The notes under the pieces: generated by a model
Databases searched by the model: none
Told to the model about the DNA's origin: nothing
What the model saw: the letters and a program-made list of their open reading frames with translations, nothing else
Assembly: GCF_001988955.1 (NCBI RefSeq)
Contig: NZ_CP014263.1
Span: forward strand, 1,798,001 to 1,862,000
Source of the DNA: Spirosoma montaniterrae
GTDB taxonomy: Bacteria > Bacteroidota > Bacteroidia > Cytophagales > Spirosomataceae
Length of the DNA: 64,000 bases
Direction of reading: 5' to 3'
Made by a program: the position numbers and the translations under genes
Shown: positions 54,066 to 62,660 of the stretch, piece by piece
Layout: each line of letters starts with the position of its first letter
How positions within the stretch are numbered: position 1 is the stretch's first letter

Positions 54066-54190
54066 GGTAGCTGTTCGGGACATAAGTCCCGAACTCATTA
54101 ACAGCGGACATCCGTCCGCATACATTACTTGTTTAGGCGGATGCATATCCGCTGCTATTAGGTTCGGGACTTATGTCCCGAATAGCTACC
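54066..54190. repeat. Nested palindromic element downstream of the alpha-amylase gene
   Basis: Two outer arms (54066-54120 and 54136-54190) are inverted copies of each other. Each arm contains a perfect 20-base palindrome (TTCGGGACATAAGTCCCGAA on the left) and a second hairpin of the GCGGA...TCCGC type. The element could fold as a multi-branched cruciform. The right arm ends at the amylase stop codon. Confidence 0.92.
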
Positions 54191-56172: not shown

Positions 56173-57990
56173 ATGAACACCACATCGGCCATGCCTGTGA
56201 TGAATAAACTCATCATCTATCAGATTTTCACCCGGCTGTTTGGCAACCAGAATACAACCAACGCCCTCAACGGTTCACGCGGGGAGAATGGCGTTGGCAC
56301 GTTCAACGATATCAACGACGCGGCTTTGCGGGCCATTCGGCAGTTTGGGGCTACGCACGTCTGGTATACAGGCATACTCGAACACGCTACCGAAACCAAT
56401 TATTCAGCCTTCGGTATCCGGCCCGACGACCCGTCGGTTGTGAAAGGCCGCGCCGGGTCGCCCTATGCAGTAAAAGACTACTACGACGTTGACCCCGACT
56501 TAGCCGTTGACGTGCCAAAGCGCATGGCCGAGTTTGACGCACTTATTCGGCGAACGCACGCGCACAAACTGAAGGTTATCATCGACTTCGTGCCCAACCA
56601 CGTCGCCCGCCAATACCACTCCGACGCCAAACCAGACGGCGTTGCTGACCTCGGCGAATACGACGACACGACCGTCAACTTCGCACCCAACAACAATTTT
56701 TATTACCTGCCCGGCGAAACGTTTGTGTCGCCAAACCCCACCGAAACGTCGGACCGCCCCGGCCCCTCCCCAGAAGGGAGGGGAGCAACCCATTCGGAGC
56801 ATTCACCCCTCCCTTCTGGGGAGGGGCCGGGGCGGTCCGACGTTTCGGTGGGGTTTGGCTTTCACGAACACCCTGCTAAAGTGACCGGCTCCGGCTCTAT
56901 TACGGCCTCACCCGACGTGAACGACTGGTATGAGACAGTGAAACTGAACTACGGGCTGAACATCTTCGACGGTAGCCAGCATTTTAACCCCGTTCCGGCA
57001 ACTTGGCAGCAAATGCTCGATATTCTGCTGTTCTGGGCTAAAAAAGGCGTCGACGGGTTCCGCTGCGACATGGCTTATTATGTGCCCATCGAATTCTGGC
57101 AGTGGGCTGTGTATCAGGTTAAAAAGGCATATCCGAAGGTTCTTTTCATTGCTGAAATCTACGACCCCGGACTGTACCGACCGTTTATTTTTCAGGGTGG
57201 ATTTGATTACCTCTACGATAAAGTGGGCCTCTACGACGCCGTGCGGGCACTTACCGAAGGCCACGGCTCCTGCTATGATCTTACGCGCGTGTGGCAGCAA
57301 CAGTCGGGCGATTATGCCCAGCATATGCTCCGGTTCATGGAAACCCATGACGAACAGCGGATTGCATCGCGCTTTTTTGCCAGCGACCCCTGGGCGGCTG
57401 TGCCGGGCATGACACTATCAGCCACCATGCACACGGGTCCGTTTCTGCTCTATTTCGGGCAGGAAGTTGGGGTTCGGGCCGACGGTGCGTCGGGCTTCAG
57501 TGGCGACGATGGGCGCACGACCATTTTCGATTACTGGGGCATTACCGAATGGCAGGGCTACCTGAACAAAGGCCGCTACGACGGAGCAGGACTAAGCGAC
57601 GATCAGCAGCGGCTGCGGGCGTTTTACCACCAGCTCAATCACCTCGTCAGCGGTTCCGACGCTGTTCAGAACGGCTATTTTTATGACCTCCAATGGGCCA
57701 ACGACAACGGCCAAAGCCCCGGCTATGATGCCCACCGGATTTACAGTTACCTGCGCTACACCGAACGGCAAAAACTACTGATTGTCTGCAATTTCTCGAA
57801 TGAACGCACCTATGAAACTACGGTTCGGATTCCAAATCATGCGTTTGAAACGCTGAATCTGAATTCGGCACGAACGTATCGCTTTATCGACATTTTTCTG
57901 ACCGATACACAGGTAGAAGCCGTTGGACGTGAGGGTGTTCCGCTACTGCTGCCGCCCCGCGCCGTTCGCGTGTTCGAAATTAAAGCGTAA
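56173..57990 (+). CDS. Cytoplasmic GH13 alpha-amylase with in-frame palindromic insertion
   Basis: A 605-residue GH13 enzyme without a signal peptide. Catalytic residues are D299 (GFRCDMAYY), E328 (FIAEIYD) and D393 (ETHDEQR), all intact. It probably acts on imported maltooligosaccharides inside the cell. Residues about 186-229, between the conserved LPGETFV and FHEHPAKVTGSG segments, are encoded by a perfect inverted repeat and read as a Pro/Gly/Ser-rich low-complexity loop with no stop. The rest is of normal family length, so the loop is an insertion. Whether the enzyme is active is unknown. Confidence 0.9.
   Translation: MNTTSAMPVMNKLIIYQIFTRLFGNQNTTNALNGSRGENGVGTFNDINDAALRAIRQFGATHVWYTGILEHATETNYSAFGIRPDDPSVVKGRAGSPYAVKDYYDVDPDLAVDVPKRMAEFDALIRRTHAHKLKVIIDFVPNHVARQYHSDAKPDGVADLGEYDDTTVNFAPNNNFYYLPGETFVSPNPTETSDRPGPSPEGRGATHSEHSPLPSGEGPGRSDVSVGFGFHEHPAKVTGSGSITASPDVNDWYETVKLNYGLNIFDGSQHFNPVPATWQQMLDILLFWAKKGVDGFRCDMAYYVPIEFWQWAVYQVKKAYPKVLFIAEIYDPGLYRPFIFQGGFDYLYDKVGLYDAVRALTEGHGSCYDLTRVWQQQSGDYAQHMLRFMETHDEQRIASRFFASDPWAAVPGMTLSATMHTGPFLLYFGQEVGVRADGASGFSGDDGRTTIFDYWGITEWQGYLNKGRYDGAGLSDDQQRLRAFYHQLNHLVSGSDAVQNGYFYDLQWANDNGQSPGYDAHRIYSYLRYTERQKLLIVCNFSNERTYETTVRIPNHAFETLNLNSARTYRFIDIFLTDTQVEAVGREGVPLLLPPRAVRVFEIKA
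56730..56859. repeat. Perfect inverted repeat within an amylase coding sequence
   Basis: The arms 56730-56783 and 56806-56859 are exact reverse complements (54 bp each) around a 22-base loop. Each arm has an inner CCCCTCCC...GGGAGGGG sub-hairpin. The inner core is shared with the element at 62566-62660. Confidence 0.97.
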
Positions 57991-62565: not shown

Positions 62566-62660
62566 ACCCCACCCCAACCCTCCCCGTTAGGGAGGGGCTT
62601 ACTTCTAAAGAAGCTTACGCGAGTAAGTCCCTCCCTAACGGGGAGGGGTTGGGGTGGGGT
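62566..62660. repeat. Palindromic element between the SusD-like and lipoprotein genes
   Basis: The left arm 62566-62603 pairs with 62622-62660 with one mismatch and one single-base gap. Each arm carries an inner CCCTCCC...GGGAGGG hairpin like the element inside the amylase gene. Confidence 0.93.

Follow-up and report, generated by a model that had tools for sequence, protein, structure and literature searches.

The window analysed here, a 64,000-nucleotide stretch of the Spirosoma montaniterrae genome, contains a gene for a GH13 (alpha-amylase family) protein with a long palindrome inside its open reading frame. A second copy of the same repeat family lies between genes of the window. The features are listed below, with the evidence for each in parentheses.

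56173..57990, plus strand: host gene, GH13 (alpha-amylase family) protein, 605 aa (open reading frame, Pfam)
56730..56783, plus strand: left arm of the palindrome (inverted-repeat scan)
56784..56805, plus strand: 22-nt loop separating the arms (sequence, inverted-repeat scan)
56806..56859, plus strand: right arm, the exact reverse complement of the left arm (inverted-repeat scan)
56757..56832, no strand: repeat core common to other genome copies, hairpin type AGAA (genome comparison, query 36-111)
56743..56756, no strand: additional 14 nt of the left arm, missing from most family copies (read from the sequence and the copy alignment)
56833..56846, no strand: mirror image of the 14-nt stretch in the right arm (read from the sequence and the copy alignment)
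62566..62660, no strand: second family copy in the window, intergenic, hairpin type GTTA (inverted-repeat scan and pattern match)

The palindrome of the amylase gene

The 605-aa protein matches the Pfam Alpha-amylase family with an E value of 1.7e-18. Our inverted-repeat scan of the window recovered the exact inverted repeat reported in the preliminary description, at the same coordinates, with 54-nt arms that are 100% complementary and lie 22 nt apart. The frame runs through the palindrome without a stop, and the 130 nt, corresponding to about residues 186-229, translate as a Pro/Gly/Ser/Glu-rich stretch. Because the insert contains no stop and leaves the frame unchanged, translation should continue through the still open amylase gene. 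When the window was searched with the core hairpin pattern (up to 3 mismatches), we obtained four matches, two of which are the copy at 62566-62660; shuffled windows gave a mean of 0.43 and a maximum of 3, and none of 100 shuffles reached 4. The pattern matches and the inverted-repeat scan confirm the earlier view that the two copies share a core.

We aligned the window's own gene (L019) with 75 relatives (76 rows, including paralogues and, for some species, two entries); the motif filter left 34 of 109 other amylase loci without a row. The nearest named relatives, from S. sordidisoli and S. lacussanchae, share 80% identity over the aligned protein. Reading the alignment by eye, we found the palindrome peptide in none of the 75 aligned relatives. 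The refuting outcome named in the preliminary description, a loop conserved among the orthologues, was therefore not observed. Between the conserved motifs FV.P and E.PAK.TG, the loop measures about 7-23 residues in the Spirosoma relatives and about 43 here. Since the loop varies in length among relatives, the element sits where the amylase tolerates a change of length, and since the relatives already have residues there, the net gain is smaller than the approximately 44 residues first proposed. Judged from these comparisons, insertion of the palindrome into the amylase gene is well supported.

A predicted structure of the amylase had a mean pLDDT of 72.1 and a pTM of 0.77, and some stretches outside the insert also fell below 50. 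As its overall quality is moderate, we used the model for the predicted disorder of residues 190-228 alone. These residues have pLDDT values below 50, matching the expectation for a disordered loop, and the insert is accordingly predicted to be a flexible, disordered segment. The RNA of positions 56710-56880 folds at −147.3 kcal/mol (z −16.9), and none of 200 shuffles was equally low. So strong an RNA hairpin might attract RNase III cleavage or slow down ribosomes, and the amylase protein may be scarce as a result.

The amylase copy belongs to the AGAA type, and each of its outer arms contains about 14 additional nucleotides in mirrored arrangement. A degenerate copy at genome position 2597119 (L170) has a similar 14-nt-like stretch at the same place. 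Long perfect arms had been taken to imply recent insertion or selection. This now has to be qualified, as the recurrence of the 14-nt stretch in the degenerate copy means that such arms need not reflect one recent event. The L170 copy also contains a second resemblance to the 14-nt stretch, inside a hairpin, and the stretch is perhaps a small unit that inserts into palindromes.

Paired hairpins across the genome and in other genes

The genome, a single contig of 5.80 Mb, contains 127 instances of the half hairpin CCCTCCC-N3-7-GGGAGGG and none of a reversed control pattern. A slightly wider expression, applied to the copies listed, found 126 halves, forming 56 pairs and 14 single halves. The fetched copies are part of the genome's set, so that the family comprises at least 56 pairs and at least 14 in-frame hosts. 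Most pairs share the ends ACCCC(A/G)CCCC...GGGGTGGGGT. Fifty-two of the 56 listed pairs are short and lack DUF559, the domain described below, and in these 52 the hairpin loop is GTTA in both arms in 25 cases and AGAA in 9. Terminal inverted repeats, shortness, and high copy number are thus all present in the family.

The flanks and arms of the copies were compared as well. Four or more additional inverted nucleotides in the host flanks were present in 6 of 49 copies (12.2%, compared with 2.7% of mismatched flank pairs), which may reflect target choice or later arm-to-arm copying. The outermost nucleotides of the amylase copy, which is outside the scored flank set, are GCCAAA/TTTGGC and are also inverted. 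No target-site duplication was evident by eye in the copy flanks compared. The likeness of the two arms was 0.933 within a copy and 0.823 between copies (52 copies).

Among the copies listed, 18 of the 55 pairs with enough flank sit in a spanning open frame. We counted 14 in-frame insertions in 14 genes with Pfam support, 13 of them besides the amylase, which bears out the proposal that a palindromic family enters genes in frame. Named from Pfam matches and sequence, the hosts are an MFS transporter, MiaB, a phosphoesterase-type protein, leucyl-tRNA synthetase (LeuRS), an ABC transporter, the amylase, an alpha-glucosidase, a B12-binding/MeaB/mutase fusion, MetH, an FG-GAP/ASPIC protein, an OPT transporter, an FAD-linked oxidase, PurH, and methylmalonyl-CoA mutase (MCM); some of these are essential genes. 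The peptide PTPxPSPLGRGEx...PLPNGEGxGVG recurs, and other copies are read in another phase. Copies at 2541819 (in a 120-aa frame), 3354979 (in a 253-aa frame antisense to a longer one), and 4127508 (in a frame extension upstream of the likely start) were not counted as intragenic.

A fifteenth intragenic copy, at genome position 1881228 (L167), is the second in the B12-binding/MeaB/mutase fusion; it is of the CCCTCTCCC type and shifts the frame. Behind it, coding continues in another frame, stop-free over the stretch read, and a recent break, a sequencing error, and a recoding event are all candidate explanations. Intragenic copies are consequently in frame in 14 of 15 cases, compared with the one third expected if the frame were ignored (p = 2e-6). 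This bias reflects what survives and does not show a choice of frame by insertion. Broken genes among the non-spanning copies were sought by frame ends alone, so that the number of frame-breaking copies is at least one.

Long perfect palindromes are hard to sequence, and the shift at 1881228 could be a single-base error, which would suit an artefact of assembly or sequencing. We consider such an artefact highly improbable, since the one-contig genome holds many copies that end alike, 14 genes carry them in frame, and similar arrangements recur in other genomes and in proteins of other origin.

Absence from orthologues was examined for MetH and LeuRS in addition to the amylase. All 19 aligned genus loci of LeuRS are short between GRAE.W and ELSTMPGW, where this genome has a palindrome peptide of ~30 residues. 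The MetH insertion is longer and includes a DUF559 domain at residues 214-367 of the fused frame. Wherever another genus genome gave a match (34 of 34), it covered MetH on either side of this domain and not the domain itself (one incomplete genome has no match, and the matches of genome G019 contain stops). The MiaB insert lies in a loop of variable length over 19 loci, two of which, L274 and L290, have palindrome-like peptides of their own. Downstream of GQNVDSYKW, both the length of this loop and its repeat-like peptides differ by species (L274, L276, L286, L289, L290, and L291), as if several repeat families had entered it. Aligned with solved structures, the MiaB insert falls in a gap between chain residues 223 and 227 of 7mjv, the MetH insert in a gap at residue 221 of 9ssp, and the alpha-glucosidase insert in a gap at about residues 131-132 of 5do8. 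For PurH and LeuRS, the alignment to solved structures is less sharp at the place of the insert.

The segments might alternatively be kept for use by the host, as a regulatory hairpin (an RNase III site or an intergenic terminator) or as a useful peptide. The very stable RNA hairpin would suit such a role, as would several intergenic copies within a few nucleotides of neighboring frame ends, and the greater likeness of arms within a copy; recent copying would also produce that likeness. We regard host use as improbable, given that relatives lack the insert in the amylase, LeuRS, and MetH, that the 14 hosts are unrelated, and that the insert is predicted to be disordered. At positions 1060163 (L138) and 2827343 (L146), the space between two converging frames is filled by a copy, with no more than about 3 nt between the frame ends and the estimated element edges; copies between converging frames could act as terminators.

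DUF559 genes between inverted palindromes

All three DUF559 genes found in the genome (PF04480; Vsr-like endonuclease) lie between inverted palindromes. Two of the listed pairs span 476 and 455 nt, with an open DUF559 frame between the halves. These elements are the MetH and MCM insertions, where host domains precede and follow an in-frame nuclease; no Hint/intein splicing domain appeared in Pfam scans of the two fusions. The third DUF559 gene is intergenic, between inverted palindromes of another loop type. The ends are of the GTTA type in the MetH element and of the AGAA type in the MCM element, and no other hairpin types are as common as these two. The amylase copy shares an identical stretch of 27 nt with one end of the MCM element, as well as the end hairpin. 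These data indicate that the repeat family first described is real, and that its description was incomplete, because longer copies carry DUF559 between the same palindromes.

Positions E20, D49, E60, D62, and H66 of the domain, which we take to be the catalytic positions, are conserved in at least 97% of the 79 long-frame and of the 36 free-standing domains. As these acidic and histidine positions are kept, the embedded nuclease does not look decayed. A DUF559 protein of Caulobacter has been named VsrA and described as a Vsr-like protein (PMC12907096).

We found a DUF559 match in 23 of 36 genus genomes and in 222 of 395 genomes of the phylum sample. For 60 DUF559 loci (L181-L240), inverted repeats were scored in the 330-nt flanks against 60 shuffles per locus, the domain being located with phmmer. 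Fifty-five loci were tested, L204, L205, L209, and L211 being without a domain and L234 having too short a flank. Flanking inverted repeats exceeded all shuffles in 43 of the 55 loci, compared with 3 of 80 random control blocks in other loci. By source, the positive loci were 3 of 3 in this genome, 21 of 24 in the genus, and 19 of 28 in the phylum, where the best-scoring loci make up a non-random sample; by form, they were 32 of 37 free-standing domains and 11 of 18 in longer frames. The 12 failing loci include 7 of the 18 in long frames. This test supersedes our scans with a narrower motif (3 loci, and 14 loci with 11 over control).

Hairpin type follows DUF559 clade. On 20 labeled loci it changes 4 times, which is the minimum, and none of 500 shuffles was as low, although near relatives may share a flank by descent. 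The label of L194 came from an earlier reading, the flank test having picked another repeat there, and seven genus loci (L191, L192, L197, L199, L201, L203, and L210) were unlabeled; L191 has a different repeat type from the rest of its clade. Over the 36 genomes, hairpin number was associated with DUF559 presence at p = 0.002, and at p = 0.066 after subtraction of two hairpins per DUF559 match. In view of the corrected value, we do not rely on this correlation.

The palindromes could instead spread by other means, such as another transposase or replication or repair acting on hairpins, with DUF559 as a passenger. The predominance of short pairs without DUF559 (52 of the 56 listed), the 19 and 20 hairpins in two genus genomes that have no DUF559 match (one of them 84% complete), and the weakening of the correlation upon correction are all in agreement with a passenger role. 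Against it stand the flanking of all three DUF559 genes of this genome, the tracking of clade by hairpin type, and three Y1/RAYT loci (about 3.3 kb each) that have no family hairpin, at least two of them ringed by other repeats. On balance, we find a passenger role unlikely, while giving it real weight.

DUF559 also occurs inside long proteins elsewhere. Among 150 listed phylum rows, the 3 of this genome included, 39 frames have at least 600 aa and 11 have 300-599. A search with the MetH-embedded domain, restricted to long proteins, returned 61 carriers. The hosts, named from accessions and motifs and in a few cases from source records, include MetH (at three or more places), MCM, LeuRS (at two places), IleRS, a MurF-alanine racemase fusion, RecG, XseA, and type I restriction subunits. 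Many of the inserts both start and end with peptides of the same style, e.g. LTPGPSPKERG and PLPTGEGxGV, and three proteins (P0015, P0016, and P0018) have a DUF559 insert in the same LeuRS loop that holds a short palindrome here. The MCM, LeuRS, and MetH sites are each occupied in several proteins, a pattern in which inheritance and homing are not separated. In another Spirosoma genome (L192, G017), DUF559 is in frame elsewhere in MetH, in the linker before the B12 domain, with inverted-repeat flanks.

In a quick tree of 115 domains, one starred branch separates 51 long-frame rows from 64 rows that include all 36 free-standing domains. The tree rests on few columns and leaves 49 forks open, L199 and L210 were left out as too short, and its long proteins were collected by likeness to the MetH copy of this genome itself. 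This MetH copy clusters with copies from MCM (SH-aLRT 84), as would be expected after a jump from one host gene to another.

A candidate mobile element and its known counterparts

Together, these data suggest, with a probability of roughly 0.6, that the palindrome in the amylase gene represents a short and non-autonomous member of a mobile palindromic family whose longer kin carry DUF559 between inverted hairpin ends. The element would have entered an amylase loop that already varied in length. As the insert is stop-free and preserves the frame, the amylase would be read through with an added flexible segment, without splicing. For movement, we infer that DUF559 would cut the hairpin ends and targets, that repair would copy the element in, and that short copies would borrow the nuclease in trans. 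Selection would remove insertions that break genes, the amylase insert would be nearly neutral with the protein presumably made, and an element whose palindromes are open to translation would be able to persist within coding DNA. The lack of an evident target duplication, the lack of observed movement, the corrected correlation, and the strong RNA hairpin, which may lower expression, count against a firm claim.

A broader proposal is that these elements form a widespread class that is open throughout, carries DUF559 between translated palindromes, enters essential proteins without splicing, jumps between hosts, and spawns short derivatives that lengthen loops. We hold this tentatively, at a little below even odds. 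If this holds, translation would be what keeps such an intein-like parasite alive, and the element would serve as a model of how protein-coding palindromes move.

Several known systems share parts of this arrangement. Like MITEs, the family is short and many-copied with inverted ends, and has a longer coding element with the same ends as candidate autonomous form; it differs in having no evident target-site duplication, an endonuclease domain and no known transposase, and copies that are open in the host frame. REP/REPIN systems consist of paired inverted hairpins in many copies, together with a linked enzyme gene that has hairpins of its own type on either side. The Spirosoma family shares the paired inverted hairpins, the copy number, and the flanked enzyme gene, but here the linked gene is DUF559. 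A RAYT was rejected as the mover, there being no family hairpin around any of the three Y1_Tnp genes of the genome (about 3.3 kb each). With inteins and homing endonucleases, the elements have in common a nuclease in frame in conserved proteins, recurring sites, a patchy distribution in relatives, and conserved residues that are kept; unlike those, the Spirosoma fusions have no Hint domain and are bounded by translated palindromes.

The closest likeness is to the palindromic elements of Rickettsia (RPE). Palindromes translated inside conserved proteins were reported there in 2000. According to two reviews, RPEs are about 105-150 bp long, have inverted ends and a stem-loop, occur between genes as well as in the reading frames of unrelated conserved genes, where one peptide recurs, and include an RPE-bearing guanylate kinase shown to be made and active; a 2007 review left the movement of such small elements as a question for future work (PMC2229807, PMC10969869). 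Protein-coding palindromes are also reported from Wolbachia. The Spirosoma family is similarly many-copied, intergenic as well as in frame, with a recurring peptide, and is absent from the orthologues tested. It belongs to another phylum and differs in sequence by eye, and the likeness is one of working principle. Its longer members have an endonuclease gene enclosed by the family's ends; the RPE texts consulted name no mover. By this analogy, our best reading is that the short form resembles an RPE with a candidate mobilizer. The literature searched, which covered few subscription papers and preprints, yielded no paper whose title or opening abstract lines describe palindrome-flanked or in-frame DUF559 elements.

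The present family thus places translated palindromes, in another phylum, beside a physically linked endonuclease that is found both free-standing and in frame and whose clades match hairpin types. If DUF559 is the mover, how such elements move becomes testable in the laboratory. The elements also show a route for the growth of protein loops, as in MiaB, where loop length varies in the genus and L274 and L290 have palindrome-like peptides too.

Other repeats and matches were noted in passing. Two of the genome's own Y1/RAYT genes (L129 and L130) each lie among other short repeats, of the GTCGCTAACGCGAC and GTCCCTACGGGAC types, which indicates at least two further palindromic repeat systems in the genome. 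A phage origin of the amylase gene was considered and set aside; two phage records match the protein, both unannotated fecal sequence, one of them with 93% coverage and 51% identity. Finally, positions 54066-54190 of the window hold another long imperfect inverted repeat, which is intergenic and has 57-nt arms (84%) with GTTCGGGACATAAGTCCCGAA units.
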